Virus record (IMG/VR): IMGVR_UViG_3300030116_005755 | Span: 1-25,817 of that record | Reading direction: 5' to 3' (one strand) | Source: a virus | Length of the DNA: 25,817 nucleotides | In this document: in pieces, positions 5,034 through 22,371 of the stretch | How the letters are laid out: each line of letters starts with the position of its first letter | Position numbering within the stretch: the first letter of the stretch is position 1 | Program-made: the position numbers and the translations under genes | Notes under the pieces: model-generated | What the model was told of the DNA's origin: nothing | The model's database searches: none | The model's input: only the letters and a program-made list of their open reading frames with translations

Positions 5034-6149
5034 CTATGATGGACTTCCTGAGCAACCGCCCATATAATTATTACTTTGTGTTAGATCTGCAAAATCACTT
5101 GCGTCTCCTGTTGTTTGTATTGTGAAACGCTGAATTGTATTTTTAATTGTAGAACTCTGTAGACCTCCGTTTATTGTTCCATAAGTTTTATTAGACGTAC
5201 AAGCATGCACTCTTCTAGTTGCCGCCAAGTCACCGAAATCTGTTGCATTACCTGTTGTTCCCAAAGTGACATAATCCATTGTATTCACTGACAAAGACCC
5301 TGATGTTCTGCCACCACACCAAACACCTCTAGTTGCATCACCACAAGCATCAAATTCTTCTCTTGCTGATGTGAGGTCACCAAAATCCGATGCATTCCCT
5401 GCGCTTGCGCTTGCAAAATAATCAATCACATTTGAGTAACCACCGCGATCACCCCCACCGACATGAACATAAGTAGCTCCATAGACTGCACCAGTGTAGT
5501 CAGCGTTTGTTGTAAGGTCTCCGAAATCAGTTGCATTTCCAAGAGTAGCTATTGTAACTCTCCCGATTTGACCAGTTGAAGATGTAGTAATTCCCTGACC
5601 ACCTATATGAAACCCATATGTCCCATCACTGGCACAAGAAATTTTAATTGCGGCATGTAAAGAATCACCAAAATCTGCTGCGTTTCCAAGCGTAGAAATG
5701 GTAATATAATCTATTGTCTGCGTATCTGTTCCACTTCCATAGTATCCGTTAAAAATAAGTCCGCGACTTGTGCTTGAACATGCTGCACATAATGTTTTTC
5801 CTGTTGTCAAATCACCAAAATCTGCTGCGTTACCTGCGGTGGTTATATCGTAATAATCAATAATAGCTAATGGATTACTTGATGAGTCTCTTCCCCCTGC
5901 GATGATAGCTCTATCACCACCCCAACTAAAAGCAGATTCCAAAGAAATAGTTTTAAACTCACTATTTATATATTGATAAAGAACATTGTTAGAACTATCC
6001 CACCAGAAATCTCCCTCACTTGGCGATGATGGTTCTGTGCCGCTTGCTGTATATCCCTGCTCAATTGCGTTGCCTCTAACTTTAAGCTTGTTAGGAAAGT
6101 CAACCGCTGAACCTTTATTGCCAATTGTGTTTACTTTTAACGTACTCAT
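5034..6149 (-). CDS. Six-bladed kelch-like propeller fibre protein, copy 6 (N-terminal type III)
   Basis: A 371-aa protein. Residues 1-30 (MSTLKVNTIGNKGSAVDFPN, then KLKVRGNAIE) are an N-terminal domain shared only with the next copy upstream at 6159-7244. A second module follows (SGTEPSSPSEGDFWWDSSNN..INSEFKTIS), common on phage fibre proteins. From about residue 77 there are six blades of about 48-50 residues, each ending in [ND]A[ATS]DF[GA]DL or a close variant; the last reads DASDFADL. The protein ends SGCSGSPS-type, completing the first half-blade and suggesting closure of a circular six-bladed propeller. It probably binds a host-surface target or decorates the tail; no enzyme motif is seen. 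The TAG stop is part of the Shine-Dalgarno of the next gene. Confidence 0.75.
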   Translation of the reverse strand: MSTLKVNTIGNKGSAVDFPNKLKVRGNAIEQGYTASGTEPSSPSEGDFWWDSSNNVLYQYINSEFKTISLESAFSWGGDRAIIAGGRDSSSNPLAIIDYYDITTAGNAADFGDLTTGKTLCAACSSTSRGLIFNGYYGSGTDTQTIDYITISTLGNAADFGDSLHAAIKISCASDGTYGFHIGGQGITTSSTGQIGRVTIATLGNATDFGDLTTNADYTGAVYGATYVHVGGGDRGGYSNVIDYFASASAGNASDFGDLTSAREEFDACGDATRGVWCGGRTSGSLSVNTMDYVTLGTTGNATDFGDLAATRRVHACTSNKTYGTINGGLQSSTIKNTIQRFTIQTTGDASDFADLTQSNNYMGGCSGSPS

Positions 6150-6158
6150 TTTTCTCTC

Positions 6159-7244
6159 CTAAGAAGCACTGCCTGATGTCATACCACCCAATCTTCGGGC
6201 ATTACCTGATTTGTTTAAGTCTCCGTGATCTGTGGCATTGCCTGTTGTAGCTATCGTAATTCTATCTATGGTATTTAATCCACCATAATAATCATAACCA
6301 CCTGCAAAAACTCCGTATGTATTATCGCTTGTTGCTGCGAGTTGGTATCTACTTACTGTAAGGTCTCCAAAATCTGTAGAGTTTCCAGTTGTTTGAATAG
6401 TTATATAATCAATAGTATTGATCATCATTCCACCACCTGTTACACCTCTTGTATCTCCTGAGGTAGCAGCAGCATAAACTCTATTTGAAACGCCATCACC
6501 AAAATCTGTAGCATCGCCTGTTGTAGCTATAGTAACATAATCCATCGTCAGATTATAAGCAGTTGCAGCAAAAACGCCTCGGGTAGCATCATTCATGCCA
6601 CCTTCCATCTGGTATCTTCCAAGCGTCAAATCGCCAAAATCCGTACCATTTCCTGATGTTTGACCACCCAAAGTAATATATTCAATTTTATTTGTTACAC
6701 TACCAGTATACCCACCTGCAAAAAGCCCACGATCACCATTAGAAAGTGACATATGATCTCTTGTTGCGGCAGTCATGTCTCCAAAATCTGCGGCATCGGC
6801 TGTCGTGGCTATGGTTACAAAATCAATCGTATTTACATGAGTGCTTGTATATCCACCTGCGAAAACTCCATAAGTTGTATCGGAAACTGCTCCTGCGGTT
6901 CTTCTTGAACTAGTCAAATCGCCAAAATCAGACGCATTACCTGTCGAAGTAATATCAAAATAATCTATAATATTTGATGATCCAAAACCTCCAGCATGTA
7001 ATGCTCTTGCACCGTACCATGTTGAAGGTGGAGCAAAAGAAATAGTTTTAAACTCTGAATTAATGTAATGCTTTAGAACACCGTTTCCTGTGTCGTACCA
7101 AAAATCACCGTTTGAAGGTGAACTAGGCTCTGTGCCTGAGGAAGTATAAGTTCGTTCAATTGCATTTCCGCGAATAGTCAATTTATTTGGAAAATCAACT
7201 GCACCGCCTTCATTGTCAAATGTATTTACTTTTATTGTACTCAT
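6159..7244 (-). CDS. Six-bladed kelch-like propeller fibre protein, copy 5 (N-terminal type III)
   Basis: A 361-aa paralog, the shortest of the six. Its N-terminus MSTIKVNTFDNEGGAVDFPN matches the type III domain of copy 6. The linker module is SGTEPSSPSNGDFWYDTGNG followed by YINSEFKTIS. Six blades follow, with phrases such as TYGVFAGGY, NTIDFVTIATT and GNSTDFGDL; the last is altered to GNATDHGDL. The protein ends MTSGSAS. Its ATG overlaps the TGA of copy 4 (ATGA), the only junction in the array made this way. As with the other copies, a receptor-binding or decoration role is inferred from location and fold, not from a known characterised homolog. Confidence 0.75.
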   Translation of the reverse strand: MSTIKVNTFDNEGGAVDFPNKLTIRGNAIERTYTSSGTEPSSPSNGDFWYDTGNGVLKHYINSEFKTISFAPPSTWYGARALHAGGFGSSNIIDYFDITSTGNASDFGDLTSSRRTAGAVSDTTYGVFAGGYTSTHVNTIDFVTIATTADAADFGDMTAATRDHMSLSNGDRGLFAGGYTGSVTNKIEYITLGGQTSGNGTDFGDLTLGRYQMEGGMNDATRGVFAATAYNLTMDYVTIATTGDATDFGDGVSNRVYAAATSGDTRGVTGGGMMINTIDYITIQTTGNSTDFGDLTVSRYQLAATSDNTYGVFAGGYDYYGGLNTIDRITIATTGNATDHGDLNKSGNARRLGGMTSGSAS

Positions 7245-8365
7245 GAAGCTGCTCCTGACATACTTGCCATAGCGTAAGTTGAAGCTAATAAATCACCAAA
7301 GTCAGAAGCATTTCCTGTCGTTGCTATCGTGACTGATTGCAAACTATCACTTGTCGTACCTCCACCAAAAATAGCAGTAGTCGCGTTATTAACCGCTGAC
7401 AATATATGCTGACCGCTTACTAAATCTCCAAAATCTGTGGAATTTCCAGTTGTGTCGGTAGTGATATATTCTATTTGATTTAAAATGCTGCTTGAATTTC
7501 TACCGCCCCCAAACAATCCTCTGGTATCGCCACCTGCACCTGCCATATTCTTTTTCGAACCTAATAAATCACCGAAGTCAGTTGCATTACCTGTTGTCTG
7601 AATAACAACATAATCCATGACATTGTTATAAGCTGTGGAACCTTGACCACCTGCGGTAACTCCCCTTGTGCCATTACTTAATGCTGCAATATTTCTTCTG
7701 GAAACCGTTAAGTCTCCAAAATCTGTAGAATTAGAAGGAGATGCTATTGTGATATATTCAATGTTATTTGAATAATAAGTTCCATCAACACGTTCACCGC
7801 CAAAGTGCAAACCGCGTGTAGCATCAGCCGCAGCCGCCCCTGATTCCATACCAGTTGTTAAATCACCGAAATCGGTTGCGTTTCCAGTTGTTGCGATGGT
7901 GATATATGATATTTCTTCTCTGTCTTGAACTTCATCATTACCTGCAAAAATAATTCCATAAGTTGCATCAGAACAACCTGCCGCACCATAAAAGGAAGCT
8001 AATAAATCTCCAAAGTCGGTGGCATTTCCCGAAGAAGTTATATCAATATATTGAATAACATTTTGTTTTCCAAGAATGCTATTATTGTAACCACCTGCAA
8101 AAACACCTCTATCCCCATACCAAACAGTAGAAGGGTTGACATGAGTAAGCTGCTTAAATTCTCCATTGATATAAGTGTAATATTTGTCATTTGCCGTATC
8201 AAACCAAACATCACCATTTGCAGGAGAACTTGGTTCAGTTCCGCTTGCCGTGTATGCAAAACCTAAAAGACCGCTATCCGAACCACCGCTATTTAATCCA
8301 TACGTGAAATTAGGTGCGCCAGTACCTGCGCTGTCTGTTATCTTTTCAACTTCTACATCACTCAT
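7241..8365 (-). CDS. Six-bladed kelch-like propeller fibre protein, copy 4 (N-terminal type II)
   Basis: A 374-aa paralog. The N-terminus MSDVEVEKITDSAGTGAPNF, with GLNSGGSDSGLLGFAY, is shared with copy 3, including the AGTGxPNF motif that type I copies also have. The module SGTEPSSPANGDVWFDTAND then YINGEFKQLTH precedes the propeller. There are six blades ending NATDFGDL, NATDFGDL, NSTDFGDL, NATDFGDL, NSTDFGDL and NASDFGDL, the most regular set in the array. The protein ends MASMSGAAS. The stop is TGA overlapping the next ATG, rather than TAG. The fold call rests on repeat number and phase. Confidence 0.75.
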   Translation of the reverse strand: MSDVEVEKITDSAGTGAPNFTYGLNSGGSDSGLLGFAYTASGTEPSSPANGDVWFDTANDKYYTYINGEFKQLTHVNPSTVWYGDRGVFAGGYNNSILGKQNVIQYIDITSSGNATDFGDLLASFYGAAGCSDATYGIIFAGNDEVQDREEISYITIATTGNATDFGDLTTGMESGAAAADATRGLHFGGERVDGTYYSNNIEYITIASPSNSTDFGDLTVSRRNIAALSNGTRGVTAGGQGSTAYNNVMDYVVIQTTGNATDFGDLLGSKKNMAGAGGDTRGLFGGGRNSSSILNQIEYITTDTTGNSTDFGDLVSGQHILSAVNNATTAIFGGGTTSDSLQSVTIATTGNASDFGDLLASTYAMASMSGAAS

Positions 8366-8374
8366 TTTATTTTC

Positions 8375-9535
8375 CTAAGAAGGTGAACCAGAACACCCAC
8401 CTGCACCGTCAATTGTTGCCGTATTGTCTCCAAAATCTGTAGCATTACCTGTTGTCTGGATCGTTACGTAATCCATTGTATTTGTATAAGGTGATGCACC
8501 ACCGCTATTAAAGACAGCGTATGTAGCGTCAGCCACAGCGGCTGTTTGTCGCCCTTCTGTAAGGTCACCAAAATCTGTGGCATTTCCTGTCGTTTGGATT
8601 GTTATATAGTCTATTACGTTCTGATAAGAGAATGAAGCACCGCTACCACCTCCCATAACACCGCGAGTTGCGTCTGAAACAGCTCCACCTATATAAAAAC
8701 CCACTGTCATATCGCCAAAGTCCACTGCATCTCCTGCGGAAGCGTATGTTATATATTGTATCGTTTCATCATTTGCAGAATAATAATTATAGCCACCGCA
8801 TATAATACCCCTTGTTAAATCACCGTAAGCACCACCCAGTCGATTGCCTCTGATTAAGTCTCCTCCAAAGTCAGTGGCGTTGCCTGTCGTTGCAATCGTA
8901 ATTTTATCTATATCAGTTTTGTATCTGGCTTCACCACTACCAGATCCGAAACCCATCGCAAATATTCCTAAAGTGCCGTTAGAACATGCTACCGTATCTG
9001 ATTTTGATTGTGTTAAATCTCCAAAATCTGTAGCGTTTCCTGCTGAACTGATTGTGACGTAATCCATTACATTTTGGTATGAGGTGCTTGTATTAACGCT
9101 GCCGCCTCCCCATACGCCTCTAGTTTGATTACTTAGTCCTGATGTAAATTCTCTTGTGACGCTCAAATCACCAAAATCAGTGGCGTCTCCTGTTGTAGTT
9201 ATATCTATCTGATTTATTGTATTTAATGAAGATCCATTATTTGCGGTTTCACCGCCAGCGAATAATCCTCTAGTTCCACTCCAAGCATTTTGAGCCGCAG
9301 CCGCATTTTCATGCGTTATCTGTTTAAACGCACCTGCTACATAATAATATAATTTATCATTTGTGCTATCATACCAAAGATCACCGTTTGCAGGGGAAGA
9401 TGGTTCTGTTCCTGATGAAGTGTATGCCTTGCCGATTAAACCGCTATCAGAACCGCCAGAATTAAGACCGTATGTAAAACTTGGTGCGCCTGTCCCTGCA
9501 CTATCCGTAATTTTTCTTGTTTGAAATTCTGACAT
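8375..9535 (-). CDS. Six-bladed kelch-like propeller fibre protein, copy 3 (N-terminal type II)
   Basis: At 386 aa this is the longest paralog. The N-terminus MSEFQTRKITDSAGTGAPSF, with GLNSGGSDSGLIGKAY, is type II, as in copy 4. After the SGTEPSSPANGDLWYDSTND module there is an extra Ala-rich linker (HENAAAAQNAWSGTRGLFAG) before blade 1. Six blades follow; blade 3 has a one-residue insertion in the signature (NATDFGGDL) and blade 4 reads DAVDFGDM. It ends GCSGSPS. The start ATG follows TAGGAGAATACA, in which the TAG is the stop of copy 2. Confidence 0.75.
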   Translation of the reverse strand: MSEFQTRKITDSAGTGAPSFTYGLNSGGSDSGLIGKAYTSSGTEPSSPANGDLWYDSTNDKLYYYVAGAFKQITHENAAAAQNAWSGTRGLFAGGETANNGSSLNTINQIDITTTGDATDFGDLSVTREFTSGLSNQTRGVWGGGSVNTSTSYQNVMDYVTISSAGNATDFGDLTQSKSDTVACSNGTLGIFAMGFGSGSGEARYKTDIDKITIATTGNATDFGGDLIRGNRLGGAYGDLTRGIICGGYNYYSANDETIQYITYASAGDAVDFGDMTVGFYIGGAVSDATRGVMGGGSGASFSYQNVIDYITIQTTGNATDFGDLTEGRQTAAVADATYAVFNSGGASPYTNTMDYVTIQTTGNATDFGDNTATIDGAGGCSGSPS

Positions 9536-9544
9536 TGTATTCTC

Positions 9545-10678
9545 CTAAGATGGTGACCCTGACCCTGCCATAACTGCCATTGAAGTACCTGCTAAATCGC
9601 CAAAATCACTGGCATTTCCTGTTGTACTAAAAGCCCAATAACTTATAGTATTTACTTCACCTGAGCCGCTTATTCGACCACCCATAGCAACACCTCTGCT
9701 ATAGTTAGAAGTCGCATCAAAATAATCAGGCGAATATGATAGATCACCAAAATCCGCAGCATTACCAGTTGTTTGTATAGTAACATATGACATTGTGTTT
9801 AAGAAAGTATTTGAATTGTAAGACTTACCGCCCATCACTACAAACTTTCCATCCCCACTTGCTGCCGCACAAAATGTATGCATCACACTATCATCACCAA
9901 AATCTGTAGCGTTGCTCGGAGTTGCCATTGTCGTGTATTCTATTGTTTGGTTGACAGAAGTTTTATTACTAGCCCCATGCTCCATTTTGTGGACTGCCCT
10001 TGTTGCATCACCTGCGGATGTTGTTCCTTCTGGACTGACAGTACAATCACCAAAAGCTGAAGCATTGCCTGTTGTGGCTATTGTAACATAATCTATTTTG
10101 CCGTAATTATTTACAAAATTACCACCATGAATAAGCATATATGTTCCATCTGCCACCGCAGAGTTATCCCGACCTGCTTGAATTGTATCGCCAAAATCTG
10201 TGCAATTGCCCAAAGTTGAGGGCGTGACATATTCAAGGGTATTCGTATACGAACCCAACCCTAATTTAAAAATAGTCCTATTATTCGCACCTGCGGCAGT
10301 CCCTTGAGCCGTTGCAGAAGTAGTATCCCCAAAGTCGCTAGCATTTCCTGTTGTTGTAATATCAAAGTAATCAATAGTATTTGAGCTTGAACCGCCTCTT
10401 TCCCCTGCGTGAACCAAGGCTCTGTCTCCATACCATGTGGTAGGAGCGATCCCGATTGTTTCTCTCCACTCACCTGCAATATAAATAAATATCTTTTCGT
10501 TTGTTGTATCCCACCAAATAGAACCATTCTGAGGAGAACTTGGTTCACTAGAACTTGCGTTATATTCACCAACATTTAGCGTAGAAACTGCCGCGCCATT
10601 CATTGTAACCCCATTGGAAAAATTGGGTTTCCCTGTCCCTGCCGCATCTACAATTGTATCAACTTTTATTTCTGGCAT
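9545..10678 (-). CDS. Six-bladed kelch-like propeller fibre protein, copy 2 (N-terminal type I)
   Basis: A 377-aa paralog. The N-terminus MPEIKVDTIVDAAGTGKPNF, with NGVTMNGAAVSTLNVGEYNA, is type I, shared with copy 1. The module SSSEPSSPQNGSIWWDTTNE then YIAGEWRETIGIA links it to the propeller. The six blades are the most diverged of the array: their signatures include NASDFGDT, NCTDFGDT, NASAFGDC and NATDFGDD. It ends MAGSGSPS. Faster change here than in its type I partner may reflect altered binding specificity, but that is inference. Confidence 0.75.
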   Translation of the reverse strand: MPEIKVDTIVDAAGTGKPNFSNGVTMNGAAVSTLNVGEYNASSSEPSSPQNGSIWWDTTNEKIFIYIAGEWRETIGIAPTTWYGDRALVHAGERGGSSSNTIDYFDITTTGNASDFGDTTSATAQGTAAGANNRTIFKLGLGSYTNTLEYVTPSTLGNCTDFGDTIQAGRDNSAVADGTYMLIHGGNFVNNYGKIDYVTIATTGNASAFGDCTVSPEGTTSAGDATRAVHKMEHGASNKTSVNQTIEYTTMATPSNATDFGDDSVMHTFCAAASGDGKFVVMGGKSYNSNTFLNTMSYVTIQTTGNAADFGDLSYSPDYFDATSNYSRGVAMGGRISGSGEVNTISYWAFSTTGNASDFGDLAGTSMAVMAGSGSPS

Positions 10679-10687
10679 TTTTTTCTC

Positions 10688-11818
10688 CTAAGACGCACTA
10701 CCCGAACAAGCACCTGACTCACTGAAATTTGCCACATAATCCCCGAAGTCTGTTGCATTTCCTAAAGTTTGAACTGTTATATAATCCATGACATTATTAT
10801 CACCAGTGCTTGAATTATAGCCATGTGAAAAAACGCCATAAGTAGTATTACTCATTCCGCTTAAAGTTCTTGCGACTGTAAGATCACCGAAATCTGTTGC
10901 GTTGCCTGTTGTCTGAGTTGTAAAATATTGCATGACATTTGTTATAGCACTATTTCCTCTACCACCTGCTACGACACCTCTTGTTGCGTCTGATACACTT
11001 CCAAGCTCATATGCGCCTACTGTAAGGTCACCGAAATCAGTTGTATTCCCAGTTGTTGCATAGGTAATATATTCAGTCGTAACAGCCGATTGAGAAGTAT
11101 AACCACCTGCAATTACGCCTCTAGTTGCATCAGCAAAAGAAGTACCGCCATATAGGCCAGTAGTTACGTCTCCGAAGTCTGTTGCATTGCCAGTAGTTGC
11201 AGGAATAATTTTATCAATTTCATTTGAGTTACTACCACTGTAACCACCTGCAACAATTCCAATTGTGCCATTACAACTTGCCGCATCTGTCCAAGCCTTT
11301 GAGCTTTGCAAATCTCCAAAATCTGTCGCGTTTCCAGCTGTGCTTATAGTAACATAATCAATAATGTTTTTTAGATTACTTAGACTGCTTAGATAACCTC
11401 CAAACCATAAACCCCTTGTTGCATTACTTAATGAACCTATTGATTGTCTTGCTTCTGTAAGATCGCCAAAGTCTGTTGCGTTGCCAGTACTAAGAATAGT
11501 GATATAAGAAATTACGTTAGAGGAAGAACCACCAGTACGACCACCGCCCATTACACCTCTATCACCACCCCAAGTAATACCTCCTGCAATACCGATGGTC
11601 TCTTTCCACTCACCCTCTGCATAGATAAATGTTTTTTCGTTTGCAGTATCCCACCACAAAGCACCATTGCTAGGACTGCTTGGCTCTGATGAACTTTCAG
11701 TATATTCATTAAGGTTAAGAGTAGACGTAGCTGCACTATTGACCGTAATACCATTTTCAAAGTTTGGCTTACCCGTACCTGCCAGATTTACAACTGTATC
11801 TACTTTTAATTCTGTCAT
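10688..11818 (-). CDS. Six-bladed kelch-like propeller fibre protein, copy 1 (N-terminal type I)
   Basis: A 376-aa paralog and the first of the array in transcription order. The N-terminus MTELKVDTVVNLAGTGKPNF, with NGITVNSAATSTLNLNEYTE, is type I. The module SSSEPSSPSNGALWWDTANE then YAEGEWKETIGIA is followed by six blades. A clear consensus is visible: TRGVxAGGY, then NxIDYITIxTT, then GNATDFGDLT. The end is GACSGSAS. Its ATG shares one base with the TAA of the cupredoxin-domain fibre gene (TAATG), so the array is coupled to the main fibre operon. Confidence 0.75.
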   Translation of the reverse strand: MTELKVDTVVNLAGTGKPNFENGITVNSAATSTLNLNEYTESSSEPSSPSNGALWWDTANEKTFIYAEGEWKETIGIAGGITWGGDRGVMGGGRTGGSSSNVISYITILSTGNATDFGDLTEARQSIGSLSNATRGLWFGGYLSSLSNLKNIIDYVTISTAGNATDFGDLQSSKAWTDAASCNGTIGIVAGGYSGSNSNEIDKIIPATTGNATDFGDVTTGLYGGTSFADATRGVIAGGYTSQSAVTTEYITYATTGNTTDFGDLTVGAYELGSVSDATRGVVAGGRGNSAITNVMQYFTTQTTGNATDFGDLTVARTLSGMSNTTYGVFSHGYNSSTGDNNVMDYITVQTLGNATDFGDYVANFSESGACSGSAS

Positions 11819-12924
11819 TAGATTACTGCGTATCTCGCCCCTGATGAAATTGTAATTGTTACACCACTTGCAACGGTCAATGGACCAACCGAGAAAGCGT
11901 TATCTGTTGCTGCGACTGTTACATCCGAGCTGAGTGTCTTTGTGTGACTATTTACAGCACTCAAACCTCCTGATTGATCGGCAAAGCTTAACTGACCCGA
12001 CCCATCAGTTTGCAAAACTTGTGAGGCACTGCCATCTGCCGTAGGAAAAGATAAACCATCTAAAATAATTTTTCCTGTTCCATTTGGTGTAATTGCAATG
12101 TTTCCATTTGATGCTGAGACAATACCGTTGCCGTTCACATCAAGGTCACCACCCAATTGCGGAGTCGTATCAGCCGCTACACTTGCAATCCCACCTGATC
12201 CGCTTTGATCATCTACCCAAGCATAATCACTACCGTTGTAACTTAATATTTGTCCTGAAGATGCACTGCTTAAATTGAGATGTGTATTTACATCACTATC
12301 GGTATAACCTGCATTGCTAACCCATGCATAATCAGAACCATTATAGCTAAGAACTTGACCACTTGATGCGGAACTAAAATTTAAATGAGAGTCTACATCA
12401 CTGTTTCCATAACTTGCCGCAGGTGTGCCGAATGAGATGGTTCCTGATCCGTCCGTCTGTAAAACTTGTGAAGCACTTCCGTCAGACGTTGGGAATGTAA
12501 AAGCACTAGCAAAACTTGCAAAATTTGCATCACCAATCGGTGCAGTTTTAACAAGACCGCCCATGCCGCTATGGTTCGTACAATAGTAATATAAATGATC
12601 TGCCGCGTCTTGCTCTAACGTAACTTCAACATAAGCACCTGACGAACCTGCCGTTCCAACTGTTGTAATCCCTGTCGTAAAGGCTGATCCACCTCCATGC
12701 GTGCCGTTTGATGTTGTGGAAAACGCTAACGGATGTCCACTGTTGCTACTATCAGAATTGTCGAAGCGATAAGTTATACCTTTGGAAAGCGAAACAGTTT
12801 GTTGTTGCGTACCATCCATGTAATATTTGCCACCTGCAACCGTAACCGTTATCGTGGCAACTGCCGCCTTACCAGAAGAATTAATACTAGGCGCAAAGCT
12901 TGCTAAATTTCTGTTTATACTCAT
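11818..12924 (-). CDS. Tail fibre protein with N-terminal cupredoxin-like domain
   Basis: A 368-aa protein. Residues about 24-128 look like a cupredoxin: beta-rich, with GGKYYMDGTQQQTVSLSKGI and TYRFDNSD, then NSGHPLAF (H64) and LYYYCTNHSGMGG (C115, H118, M121). His, Cys, His and Met are the four ligands of type 1 copper sites, and C-x2-H-x2-M is the spacing I remember for amicyanin. The rest is fibre-like: repeated SASQVLQTDGSGxxSF motifs, two copies of SSASSGQ[VI]LSYNGSDYAWV, and the C-terminal GPLTVASGVTITISSGARYAV, an ending typical of phage fibre proteins. Similar domains occur in cyanophage and marine phage structural proteins as I recall. Copper binding is possible but not shown; the fold may serve only as a beta scaffold. 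Confidence 0.75.
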   Translation of the reverse strand: MSINRNLASFAPSINSSGKAAVATITVTVAGGKYYMDGTQQQTVSLSKGITYRFDNSDSSNSGHPLAFSTTSNGTHGGGSAFTTGITTVGTAGSSGAYVEVTLEQDAADHLYYYCTNHSGMGGLVKTAPIGDANFASFASAFTFPTSDGSASQVLQTDGSGTISFGTPAASYGNSDVDSHLNFSSASSGQVLSYNGSDYAWVSNAGYTDSDVNTHLNLSSASSGQILSYNGSDYAWVDDQSGSGGIASVAADTTPQLGGDLDVNGNGIVSASNGNIAITPNGTGKIILDGLSFPTADGSASQVLQTDGSGQLSFADQSGGLSAVNSHTKTLSSDVTVAATDNAFSVGPLTVASGVTITISSGARYAVI

Positions 12925-18666: not shown

Positions 18667-19262
18667 ACTACCTCTACTGCCCCAAATGTAATTCCATAGG
18701 TACTAACGTCATTCGCATCCCATGAAGATTCATTACTGCTTAATCTAAATAGCCCAGAGGCACTTGTAAGGTCTGCAGAGACGCTTGAACGTGTTTTCCG
18801 CAGTGCAGGGAATATTTCAAGGTCAGCCGCACTCCCTGTGCCTGTGAAGTCCAGTATGACCTTATGTAAGGTGCTGTCCGATCCTGTCCCAAGCTGTATA
18901 TAATCACCTGCAAGCAAAGTGTCGCCACTTGTGACCGTTGCTGAAACTGTCCTGTCACCTGCCGAACCGCTAATAGTAGCTGCTGTGGCTGTTCCTCTTG
19001 GGCTTGTTGCATCGGGATCATTTAGCAAAAACGAACCGAAACGACCGCGCAAACTTGCTAAAAAAGAAATCCACTGTTCTGCATTGGCTCTTTTCATTTT
19101 TGGCAGGGTTATATCTGCTTCCCATCTTTCTCCTGTGTAAGCATGGGTTTGACCTGCAAAAGTAAATGGACTTTCCGAATATGCTGTTGCAGTTACCATC
19201 GTCCACTTGATACTCTTAATACCTGTGGCTGTTGGAAGCGTTAAAGGATAACTTATTGCCAT
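18663..19262 (-). CDS. Distal tail protein-like component (DUF2460/gp12 position)
   Basis: A 199-aa protein. The N-terminus MAISYPLTLPTATGIKSIKW leads into a beta domain, with RWEADITLPKMKRANAEQWI then SLRGRFGSFLLNDPDATSPR. This K-M-x-R-x-x-A-x-x-W-x-x-F-x-x-x-L-x-G-x-x-G-x-F-x-L-x-D-P segment is recurrent in phage proteins just after the tape measure. The rest is beta-rich and ends FRLSSNESSWDANDVSTYGI. In gene transfer agents this slot is the distal tail protein ring. It shares one base with the tape measure stop (TAATG). Confidence 0.7.
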   Translation of the reverse strand: MAISYPLTLPTATGIKSIKWTMVTATAYSESPFTFAGQTHAYTGERWEADITLPKMKRANAEQWISFLASLRGRFGSFLLNDPDATSPRGTATAATISGSAGDRTVSATVTSGDTLLAGDYIQLGTGSDSTLHKVILDFTGTGSAADLEIFPALRKTRSSVSADLTSASGLFRLSSNESSWDANDVSTYGITFGAVEVV

Positions 19263-21190
19263 TAGGAAAATGCCCTCCCGAAACCACCGCCACGTCTTTT
19301 AGTATCTGCTACCGCCATTTTGGCACTTGCCGCTATCTCTGGCATCAATGACCTGATCTCTGTTCTCACTGTCTGCTGAACCCCTGTTGTGACGTTAATA
19401 TTCTGAACAACTGTGACGCCATCCCCACCACTTAAAGCAGAACGCGTATTGTTGCTGTTCATCACCGTAGCCGCGCTTTGGGGAACAATTAGCTCTGGAC
19501 CACGCTCACCAACTAAATACGGTTGCCTCGGGGAGATCGCGCCACCACTTGCCACTGGATTAAATAAAGATGAAAAGCTCACTGTTCTCAAACCCAATCC
19601 AGGGAATATAGAATTTAATACTGCATTTACAACGGTTAAGCGGAATATCTGCGCTATCACTTGCGCTACCGTTTGACGTATCAATTGTTTGAAATCGTCC
19701 ATAGTTACCTTTGTCCCTGCAACCATTTTTTCGAAGATACTTGTGATCCCATCACCAAGATTCATAGCCGCATCTACAAAACTAGCAAAAACAGGCTCAG
19801 TCTCATATCGGATTTGGTGAGTAATTTTTTCTATGGCTTCTTGTGCAGCATCAAAAAGCTCTGAATCTTTACCAATTTTTTGGAGTTCTTTTAGTTCATC
19901 GTTTAAGTTTTTTATGCCAAATGTATATTTATCTACAAGTTTTTTTGCTTCTTCAAACGCTTTCATATCTGTAATAATATTAAAAGCGCTTGGGACACCG
20001 TCTGCCGCTGTTGCTACAGCGTGCAAACCTTCATCGACCTCTGCTAGTGTTCCGCTACCAAAATCTTTTAAATTTTTAACAACGTGTTCTGGCAACAAAC
20101 CGTCAAAAGCTTCAGCTGCAAATTCTGCCGCTTCTTCTATTAAGCCAAGCTGATCTGCGGTATAACCTAAAGCTGCCGCGATTAGTAAAAGTGGTGTTCT
20201 TTTCGTAATTGCATTGAAAAATCGCATTGCAATACCAGAAGCCTTAATAGCAGTAGCTAATTTGACAAACTGCCTAACACCATTCACCACATTGATCGCA
20301 ACCCCTAAAGCAAGGTAGACACCAAATGCGATAGCAAAACTTCTGAGATTATCTGCAGCAAATTCAATCGCTTTAGCTAACAACCTAAACGCAAAGCCAA
20401 GAGTTTGACCAATTTCCGTAGCCAAACCTTTGCTGTTTCTTAAAATATCTGTAATTACATTTGTTAATTCTATAAAACCTTCGTTGAGACCACTTTGCGC
20501 GATCTGTCCTTGGAAATTAAAAACCGCATCCCCAAGCATCGACAGCGCACCGCCAGTAGTCTTAGCGAATTGATCCATTGCCCCATCTGCTGTGCCACCT
20601 GCACCAAACGTATCTAGTATAATTCTTGCTGTTTCTGCCGCACTATAAGAAACACCTGCCTCAAAACCTGCAAAGGCTGAAACGCCTCTATCTCTAAACT
20701 GATCTGCAGCCCCAATACCTGCCGACAAAGCCCTCTGAAGGTTCATCGCTGCCTCATCAAAGCCCATACCAAACTGAGCCGCGATATTACCAGTGGCTTG
20801 TAAAAGAGCATTTAAATCGTCTGCATTGCTTGATGCAGCCGCTAAAGAACCTGCACCTCTCTGAATATCCCTTAAACTGAAAGGCACTCTTGCAGCGAAC
20901 TTCTGCATATGCTCAAATGCTGCTGCACCTTCTTCCGCACTACCTAAGAGTGCAGTAAGCTGCACTTCAAGAGCCTCAATCTGTGCGCCTGTTTGTATTG
21001 TGCTTTTGATAAACGAACCGAAAATAGCAGTACCACCGACTGCTGCAATAGCACGACCTACCTTGCGGAAACTGTTTGACATTTTGTCTGTTGCCGCCTC
21101 AGTTTGGCGAGAAACTTTTTGCAAGTCTCCCCTGAGCTTCGCCATATCAAGCTCAATGCGAACTAGAATTTCGTCAACAGTCGTAGCCAT
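19262..21190 (-). CDS. Tail tape measure protein
   Basis: A 642-aa protein. Residues 1-40 are a helical start (RIELDMAKLRGDLQKVSRQT). Residues 45-240 match the conserved tape-measure core (FGSFIKSTIQTGAQIEALEV; LRDIQRGAGSLAAASSNADD; FGMGFDEAAMNLQRALSAGI). A hydrophobic stretch lies at about 283-305. The C-terminal 470-530 region (GITSIFEKMVAGTKVTMDDF, then LIRQTVAQVIAQIFRLTVV) is the lambda-H-type end domain. It is followed by GGAISPRQPYLVGERGPELI, a hallmark of phage tape measures. It sets tail length; at the usual 1.5 Å per residue this would be roughly 95 nm, a rough estimate. It starts by sharing one base with the TAA of the chaperone extension (TAATG). Confidence 0.9.
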   Translation of the reverse strand: MATTVDEILVRIELDMAKLRGDLQKVSRQTEAATDKMSNSFRKVGRAIAAVGGTAIFGSFIKSTIQTGAQIEALEVQLTALLGSAEEGAAAFEHMQKFAARVPFSLRDIQRGAGSLAAASSNADDLNALLQATGNIAAQFGMGFDEAAMNLQRALSAGIGAADQFRDRGVSAFAGFEAGVSYSAAETARIILDTFGAGGTADGAMDQFAKTTGGALSMLGDAVFNFQGQIAQSGLNEGFIELTNVITDILRNSKGLATEIGQTLGFAFRLLAKAIEFAADNLRSFAIAFGVYLALGVAINVVNGVRQFVKLATAIKASGIAMRFFNAITKRTPLLLIAAALGYTADQLGLIEEAAEFAAEAFDGLLPEHVVKNLKDFGSGTLAEVDEGLHAVATAADGVPSAFNIITDMKAFEEAKKLVDKYTFGIKNLNDELKELQKIGKDSELFDAAQEAIEKITHQIRYETEPVFASFVDAAMNLGDGITSIFEKMVAGTKVTMDDFKQLIRQTVAQVIAQIFRLTVVNAVLNSIFPGLGLRTVSFSSLFNPVASGGAISPRQPYLVGERGPELIVPQSAATVMNSNNTRSALSGGDGVTVVQNINVTTGVQQTVRTEIRSLMPEIAASAKMAVADTKRRGGGFGRAFS

Positions 21191-21414
21191 TAATCAGGAT
21201 ACCTTTCCATCAAACTCTCAAGCTCATCCCTTCGCAACGGTGGTGGCTTACCGCCAGAATGAAACTCAACAAAACCTTCTATGGCTAAAACAAATTCTTT
21301 GAAAGACATATCCCAAAAGTCTCTAGGGCTAATTTGCATTTTACCAAATGCTAACTTTTGCCATTCTGCCCAAGGAATTTCATCTAGCCGTTCGCCACCT
21401 CCTGCACGTTTCCC
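21190..21414 (-). CDS. Second tail assembly chaperone domain (Phage_TAC_6-like), probable -1 frameshift extension
   Basis: The frame is open from a TGA just before 21430 to the TAA at 21192-21190. It encodes, after the slip, 72 residues with LDEIPWAEWQKLAFGKMQIS, PRDFWDMSFKEFVLAIEGF and ELESLMERYPD. This is the pattern of the short chaperone that precedes tape measures in alphaproteobacterial phages (P-W-x-x-x-x-x-x-x-x-x-x-L-x-P-x-x-F-W-x-M-T). The conserved P-W start lies upstream of the only ATG (21339), and no ATG, GTG or TTG precedes it in frame. The slippery G GGA AAC at 21414-21408 would bring ribosomes from the gene at 21728 into this frame, giving a fusion of about 179 aa. Internal initiation at 21339 (49 aa) is the alternative and would lose the conserved N-terminus. 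Confidence 0.75.
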   Translation of the reverse strand, partial: GKRAGGGERLDEIPWAEWQKLAFGKMQISPRDFWDMSFKEFVLAIEGFVEFHSGGKPPPLRRDELESLMERYPD

Positions 21415-21728
21415 TCTTGTTGCTCATCGGTAATGATAAATGCTAATAACTCAGCAATAATTTTTAAGGTTTCTGTAAACCCTGTCGACCAGATAAGTTG
21501 CCCTACCTCTTTTTCGCTCAGATCTTTACCACTTGAGCGCAAAACAGGTGTTAATATTGCGATCATTTCCATAGTTGTAAGATTTACTTCTGATATTTCT
21601 TGTGCTGTTTTCAAAATGCCTTTACCAAGTCCTGTTTCGATCCGCATCAAAACATCCATATTGATCTTGCATTTGAAAGTCTGACTACTCAGAGTCAGCT
21701 TCACTTCTCCGCGCTTTGGGTTTGTCAT
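21384..21728 (-). CDS. Tail assembly chaperone, GTA gp10-like (Phage_TAC_11/DUF3356 type)
   Basis: The protein is 114 aa from the ATG at 21728, which has AGGAGGT upstream. The longer reading from 21767 has no such site and overlaps the previous gene by 83 bases. It begins MTNPKRGEVKLTLSSQTFKC, the N-P-x-R-G-E-x-x-L-x-L start of the GTA gp10 family. LMRIETGLGKGILKTAQEIS and LTPVLRSSGKDLSEKEVGQL follow. These proteins coat the tape measure during tail-tube growth and are absent from the finished virion. The last codons contain the in-frame heptamer G GGA AAC, where a fraction of ribosomes probably shift to -1. The gene overlaps the upstream gene by 44 bases. Confidence 0.8.
   Translation of the reverse strand: MTNPKRGEVKLTLSSQTFKCKINMDVLMRIETGLGKGILKTAQEISEVNLTTMEMIAILTPVLRSSGKDLSEKEVGQLIWSTGFTETLKIIAELLAFIITDEQQEGNVQEVANG
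21408..21414 (-). promoter_or_regulatory. Slippery heptamer GGGAAAC for -1 programmed frameshift
   Basis: Read on the minus strand the codons are GAG GGA AAC GTG; the heptamer G GGA AAC fits the X XXY YYZ rule and is in the right phase. A -1 slip gives GGG AAA CGT and enters the open frame of the second chaperone. Lambda uses GGGAAAG for its G/GT proteins. An AGGAGG lies six bases downstream (21402-21397) and could pause the ribosome or be chance. I did not find a clear strong stem or pseudoknot by eye. Confidence 0.65.
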
Positions 21729-21933
21729 CCTTGACCTCCTTAGTTTCAATTTCAAAAACTTCGCCACGATCTGCTACATCTGTAACAGAAGTTACCTGAT
21801 ACTGTTTTTTATTTGCAGTGATTACATCGCCCTCTGCAAACTTTACTGCACAAGGCACTGTAAACATAGTTCCGCGAGAATGACCAAGGATCATCGTCTC
21901 ATTAAAATGAATGGTAACTTTTTCCCAAGCCAT
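21685..21933 (-). CDS. Small protein between tail tube and chaperone, function unknown
   Basis: The protein is 82 aa from the ATG at 21933, eight bases after AGGAG; a TTG at 21939 is too close to that site. It begins MAWEKVTIHFNETMILGHSR and is beta-rich through AEGDVITANKKQYQVTSVTD, then charged to the end (KEVKDDKPKARRSEADSE). There is no TM and one cysteine. Genes at this spot in related phages vary. A role in tail-tube capping or completion is possible but not shown. The Shine-Dalgarno of the next gene (AGGAGGT) lies inside its coding region. Confidence 0.65.
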   Translation of the reverse strand: MAWEKVTIHFNETMILGHSRGTMFTVPCAVKFAEGDVITANKKQYQVTSVTDVADRGEVFEIETKEVKDDKPKARRSEADSE

Positions 21934-21945
21934 TCTCAAAACTCC

Positions 21946-22371
21946 TTAGACTGTTGCGAATGTAAATGCGCCAGAATTTTCCAATGTCACAGAATATGTA
22001 ACTTCGCCATTATGCTCACCTGCATATTCTAATGATGCTACCATAAACTCACCTGTGTACGTTCCGAAGTCTGGGACAATGATTTGAAAGTTGTGGAAGT
22101 CACTCGCACCGAAAGCACTACGCAAAGTTGCTTCCGAAGCTGCGTCTGTAAATACTCCCGAACCACTGATAGACATTGATTGGATGCCACCGTTTGCTAA
22201 TAATGCTCTTACATTAGAACTATCTTTAGTTGTAACATCTACCGCTTCATCATTCATTGTAAGGGAAGTCGATCTTAAACCACCGATAGTGGTATAAGTA
22301 TCTGAACCTGATGCAGCCGTATTATCTGCACCAATTTTTAAAAGTAGGGCTGAACCTTTTTGTGCCGCCAT
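21946..22371 (-). CDS. Major tail tube protein (TP901-1/Phage_tail_2 type)
   Basis: A 141-aa protein beginning MAAQKGSALLLKIGADNTAA. It contains YTTIGGLRSTSLTMNDEAVD, VTTKDSSNVRALLANGG and SMSISGSGVFTDAASEATLR, and ends YSVTLENSGAFTFATV. The G-x-x-x-L-x-x-N-x-x-x-x-D-x-T-x-K-D-S and I-S-G-S-G-V-F-T-D signatures are those of tail-tube proteins of gene transfer agents and P335/TP901-1-type siphophages. It polymerises as rings around the tape measure. The length fits the family. The stop of the previous gene is embedded in its Shine-Dalgarno (TAAAGGAG). Confidence 0.9.
   Translation of the reverse strand: MAAQKGSALLLKIGADNTAASGSDTYTTIGGLRSTSLTMNDEAVDVTTKDSSNVRALLANGGIQSMSISGSGVFTDAASEATLRSAFGASDFHNFQIIVPDFGTYTGEFMVASLEYAGEHNGEVTYSVTLENSGAFTFATV

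Follow-up and report, generated by a model that had tools for sequence, protein, structure and literature searches.

Two tail assembly chaperone domains very probably joined by a -1 frameshift in a family of uncultivated phages

How a conserved protein domain can be produced from a reading frame which has no start codon at its beginning is the question raised by a tail gene locus in IMG/VR record IMGVR_UViG_3300030116_005755, a virus contig of 49,930 bases. The window analysed here is the whole stretch of 25,817 nucleotides from positions 1 to 25,817 of this record, and the feature under study lies on its minus strand. Tailed phages offer familiar examples of tail chaperones joined by frameshifting. 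Phage lambda makes gpG and gpGT in a ratio of about 30:1; the tape measure protein is bound by the G part and the tail tube protein by the T part (PMC5009743). A minor fusion product that does not enter the virion counts among the marks of this type. A preliminary description of the window had proposed that two chaperones are joined by -1 recoding here as well. The analysis supports this proposal, and programmed -1 frameshifting of the lambda G/GT type, yielding a fusion of 179 amino acids from a siphophage tail chaperone gene, is regarded as by far the most probable explanation.

The chaperone locus and its two frames

The first chaperone is encoded by ORF0 (21384..21728, minus strand), a frame of 114 amino acids ending with TAG which corresponds to the 'G' product and matches the Pfam family Phage_TAC_11 (PF11836, GTA-gp10) with an E-value of 7.2e-8, over the curated cut-off. 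Its AlphaFold model has a pLDDT of 85 and finds fold matches including viral proteins annotated as tail assembly chaperone (e.g., E 9e-4). No significant match of ORF0 in the PDB was found by sequence or fold, and likewise no relative of the chaperones with a solved structure was detected by either route. The second chaperone is found in the -1 frame, where a start-less extension of 72 amino acids (21190..21408, minus strand), the 'T' domain of the fusion, matches Phage_TAC_6 (PF09550) with an E-value of 3.8e-12, over the cut-off, its residues 11-72 aligning from profile position 1. Both are located between the genes of the major tail tube protein (21946..22371, minus strand; Phage_tail_2, E 3e-40) and of the tape measure protein (19262..21190, minus strand; TMP_3, E 6e-12), the start of the latter overlapping the -1 frame stop as TAATG. 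This is the position which the lambda G/GT type leads one to expect. One further small ORF of about 82 amino acids (21685-21933, minus strand) with weak head-tail adaptor-like matches only is found between the tail tube and chaperone genes.

The heptamer GGGAAAC (21408..21414, minus strand) is read as G_GGA_AAC in the frame of ORF0 and lies 28 nucleotides upstream of the TAG, which is the first stop of this frame. In the -1 frame the last preceding stop lies 9 nucleotides upstream of the heptamer and no further one occurs until the TAA at 21192-21190, so that a start-less -1 extension overlaps the chaperone frame as it does in lambda. Most ribosomes would end ORF0 at its TAG and release the short Phage_TAC_11 chaperone. 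A minority, if lambda is a guide to the rate, would slip by -1 with tRNA-Gly on GGA and tRNA-Asn on AAC; these tRNAs would re-pair with GGG and AAA, and reading would resume from CGT in the -1 frame. The product would comprise 107 plus 72, i.e., 179 amino acids, bear the Phage_TAC_6 domain, and contain the peptide G-N-R-A-G-G across the shift. If the roles in assembly follow those of lambda, coating of the tape measure protein would fall to the short form, and the fusion would bring in the tail tube protein. The phase of the heptamer within the last codons of the first chaperone, the coordinates and the Gly-Asn-Arg-Ala-Gly-Gly peptide had all been given correctly in the preliminary description. 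The motif by itself is not rare in the window, with four occurrences of GGGAAAS observed versus five expected from shuffles, and the case therefore rests on phase, place, and conservation.

The Phage_TAC_6 domain and its first predicted helix begin around an I-P-W motif (ATT CCT TGG, approximately 21367..21375, minus strand), which is located upstream of the only ATG of the frame, as had been claimed. Before P-W the -1 frame of the window contains no ATG, GTG or TTG, the codon directly preceding it being ATT. A gene caller is expected to yield, as foreseen, the ORF of 49 amino acids (21190..21339, minus strand) which starts with the ATG at 21339-21337 and is devoid of the P-W helix. The Phage_TAC_6 profile match includes I-P-W, and the domain surpasses the Pfam cut-off only if read from before this ATG. 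As modelled by AlphaFold with a modest pLDDT of 73, the -1 domain has a helix (residues 13-22) beginning at the tryptophan of P-W, so the 49-amino-acid ORF would lack the first helix.

Conservation of the probable slip site among relatives

A search based on ORF0 yielded 80 loci in viral contigs with 37-100% identity to ORF0, 79 of which were usable; in the remaining one (L052) the match ends 1 nucleotide before the end of the stored locus, which is thus without the heptamer. All 79 usable relatives contain GGGAAAC or GGGAAAG in phase, 22-31 nucleotides upstream of the ORF0 stop, and at 90% identity they form 37 clusters, 34 with GGGAAAC and three with GGGAAAG. A scan starting from an alignment of Phage_TAC_6, which does not comprise the heptamer, found one of the two motifs in phase in 80 of 80 loci; the two sets have contigs in common and are not fully independent. 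Loss of the heptamer, which the preliminary description had named as an observation that would speak against recoding, was thus never seen in the close family. Two relatives (L008 and L009) have an additional in-phase heptamer, GGGAAAT, 9 nucleotides upstream of GGGAAAC.

Codon choice at the slip site is fixed beyond what the protein requires. In 35 relatives the glycine codon of the heptamer is always GGA (35 of 35), versus 19% of the glycine codons elsewhere, and asparagine is always AAC (32 of 32), versus 35% elsewhere. The codon preceding GGA ends with G in all 35, which is achieved by GAG, CAG, GCG, TCG, and ACG, and in contrast to these fixed codons the conserved glycine 7 is encoded by four different ones. 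Were the 35 sequences independent, the log10 probability of this choice would be -56, a figure which overstates the case as the sequences are related. In the extension, proline 12, phenylalanine 31, tryptophan 32, proline 71, and aspartate 72 are invariant across the family.

These relatives also bear on the possibility that an error of sequencing or assembly, or a dead gene, lies behind the frame break. Indel errors do occur in homopolymer runs, and the heptamer consists of two short ones. All 79 usable relatives, which come from many metagenomes, nevertheless show the identical break, and both of their frames are conserved and open; the region of the window is identical at the protein level in two separate contigs (L002 and L003). 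The relatives thus refute an error or a dead gene, and this explanation can be given practically no weight. Slippage of the polymerase during transcription could likewise join the frames. It is considered about equally negligible, as polymerases slip preferentially on long runs of A or T, in comparison with which GGG AAA is short, and the in-phase X_XXY_YYZ form is a requirement of tandem tRNA slippage.

Possible starts in the second frame and stimulatory signals

A further alternative is a separate second protein with its start inside the -1 frame, be it the ATG at 21339 to give 49 amino acids or a non-standard codon such as the ATT before P-W, and aided by AGGAGGT. This strong Shine-Dalgarno-like sequence (21397..21403, minus strand) closely follows the heptamer just upstream of the -1 domain and is retained as a similar stretch in relatives; in many chromosomal GTA-type loci, moreover, the chaperones are separate and the second has a start codon ahead of P-W. 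No relative has an ATG between the slip site and P-W, the second observation named beforehand as contrary to recoding, and in 25 of the 37 clusters there is no ATG, GTG or TTG of the -1 frame anywhere before P-W. A TTG is found between slip site and P-W in 10 of 37 clusters, which counts against the frameshift reading; it is nearly always a leucine codon directly before P-W. In the other two a candidate start codon is located only upstream of the heptamer. The sole relative in which an ATG was noted upstream is L077, where it lies 39 nucleotides from the heptamer. No start is therefore consistent in the family.

The ATG of the 49-amino-acid ORF lies downstream of the P-W helix, and in three of 35 relatives its methionine is replaced by CTG or ATA. 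Pairing with 16S rRNA upstream of it is weak (-2.5 kcal/mol versus -8.1 kcal/mol for ORF0 and -5.5 kcal/mol for the tape measure start), and no Shine-Dalgarno site precedes it on average in the 35 relatives. An internal start at this codon, neither fixed in relatives nor preceded by good pairing, was rejected. At +24 to +30, the spacing appropriate for the Shine-Dalgarno-like stretch, the codons are mixed and mostly not start codons. A separate start also leaves the fixed heptamer unexplained, and altogether it is judged very improbable, if less so than an error or transcriptional slippage.

Stimulatory signals were looked for on both sides of the heptamer. Downstream of it, single-sequence z-scores gave no sign of RNA structure (mean z -0.4 to +0.4), and consensus folding of the relatives gave no consensus pairs. 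Simple heptamer frameshift sites without a known stimulator exist. Most relatives have a Shine-Dalgarno-like stretch after the heptamer, with a mean anti-Shine-Dalgarno duplex of -8.0 kcal/mol at +12 in 35 relatives; this is the wrong side of the site for an effect of the dnaX type. The stretch encodes a glycine-rich linker in the -1 frame, so its conservation need not mean function and it may be purely coding. An upstream Shine-Dalgarno stimulator is not claimed, only weak pairing being seen there (mean -4.9 kcal/mol at -14).

Related chaperones in phages and gene transfer agents

Like the window, lambda G/GT with its site G_GGA_AAG has the order tail tube, chaperone, tape measure, a GGGAAA heptamer in phase close to where the first frame ends, and a start-less -1 extension. 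It differs in that the domains of the window are Phage_TAC_11 and Phage_TAC_6 and that the last base of the heptamer is C rather than G in most family members. An identical heptamer serving the same role ahead of the tape measure gene is known from other phages, being the reported slip site G_GGA_AAC of the haloarchaeal virus HCTV-1 (PMC5009743) and the chaperone frameshift site GGGAAAC of the Caulobacter phage Colossus (PMC3556154). These are different phages, and the likeness noted here is one of heptamer and role. The Streptomyces phage OnionKnight has an annotated joined, frameshifted chaperone (gp15/gp16) whose -1 part shows a weak resemblance to Phage_TAC_6 (E 0.05) and whose first domain is of different length; the stretch scanned has no three-three heptamer, so its site differs from that of the window.

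Four distant public phage records contain an in-phase GGGAAAC or GGGAAAA with an open -1 frame: MW202777, OP947159 (a Desulfofustis phage), MN988490 (Rhizobium phage RHph_Y3_1), and MW202897. In the first two (loci L083 and L084, respectively) the second chaperone is annotated with an ATG start downstream of P-W despite the preceding in-phase GGGAAAC. RHph_Y3_1 is an ambiguous case, as its annotated start is located directly before P-F. The phages which carry the locus of the window form a family of uncultivated, mostly marine phages in which gene callers miss the very probable join. In this large family and in several public phage records the second gene is, or would be, annotated in a truncated form without its first helix.

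The pair of Phage_TAC_11 and Phage_TAC_6 is present in the window as it is in gene transfer agents (GTAs), bacterial gene carriers resembling phages, of the RcGTA type. The window is nonetheless a phage and not a GTA; its tail protein of 1019 amino acids matches Phage-tail_3 and fn3, with no match to GTA_TIM and with DUF2460 only at E 0.17, and the record is a virus contig, not a chromosome. In the GTA literature g10 and g10.5 are given as 'tail chaperone 1' and 'tail chaperone 2', and g10 of RcGTA carries pfam11836, i.e., Phage_TAC_11 (PMC11409702). RcGTA thus resembles the window in the Phage_TAC_11 domain of g10 and differs from it in that g10 and g10.5/g10.1 are treated as two separate genes. 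Phage_TAC_6 searches were carried out over alphaproteobacterial genomes other than R. capsulatus, and the loci were sorted by frame, start, and heptamer. From the 59 chromosomal loci classified, many of them with GTA signatures, half have a second chaperone with its own start just before P-W. Fifty-four loci are in -1 relation with a recognisable P-W; when a start codon no more than 12 codons ahead of P-W is counted as an own start, 25 combine such a start with the absence of a heptamer, 21 show a heptamer but no such start, two have both, and six neither. The two features are nearly exclusive (Fisher p 2e-7, a descriptive value only since the genomes are related), and a tree test corrected for kinship found too few independent pairs for a decision.

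In 14 loci C_CCT_TTC or C_CCT_TTT is located directly before P-W, the -1 frame reading P-F-P-W, P-F-S-W or P-F-R-W. The GTA-type chromosomal clusters L243, L244, L185, L190, L245, L174, L176, and others lack a start before P-W and have CCCTTTC in phase where the first chaperone ends. In L243 and L244 the region of the zero-frame stop and the sequence upstream of it are free of candidate starts. Several CCCTTTC loci also have, downstream of P-W, an ATG or TTG which overlaps the first stop; a protein initiated at that codon would be without P-W, whereas the own-start loci retain it by definition of their class. L178 and L193 have GGGAAAG instead of CCCTTTC, L193 also with a TTG as possible start. 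The genomes of L174, L177, L178, L185, L190, and L193 encode GTA_TIM a few kb downstream, and this domain occurs together with Phage-tail_3 and Rcc01698_C in one protein downstream of L211, L241, L243, L244, and L245. The GTA clusters with an own start include L171, L175, L179, L183, L187, and L192.

The view, taken also in the preliminary description, that GTA chaperones are separate genes thus holds for many GTA-type clusters but fails for others, including clusters with GTA_TIM, which have an in-phase slippery heptamer and no start. Judged from these arrangements it seems reasonably likely that in some alphaproteobacterial lineages GTAs of the RcGTA type produce the second chaperone by -1 frameshifting at C_CCT_TTC or G_GGA_AAG, while in other lineages the pair would have been converted into separate but overlapping genes, the second of them starting directly before P-W. 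No report of frameshifting in GTA chaperone genes was found in the literature searched; a paper on the Wolbachia GTA is not a precedent, as it concerns a +1 shift in a hydrolase. If true, a chaperone pair described as two genes would be expressed by recoding in part of the GTAs, which bears on how the phage tail module was domesticated.

Elsewhere in the window (5034-11818, minus strand) six tandem ORFs of 361-386 amino acids share a similar N-terminus and a pairwise identity of 38-50% over most of their length, a seventh, adjoining ORF (11818-12924) being unrelated to them. A Pfam scan of one of the six gave no match; the array looks like fibre or surface proteins expanded by duplication.
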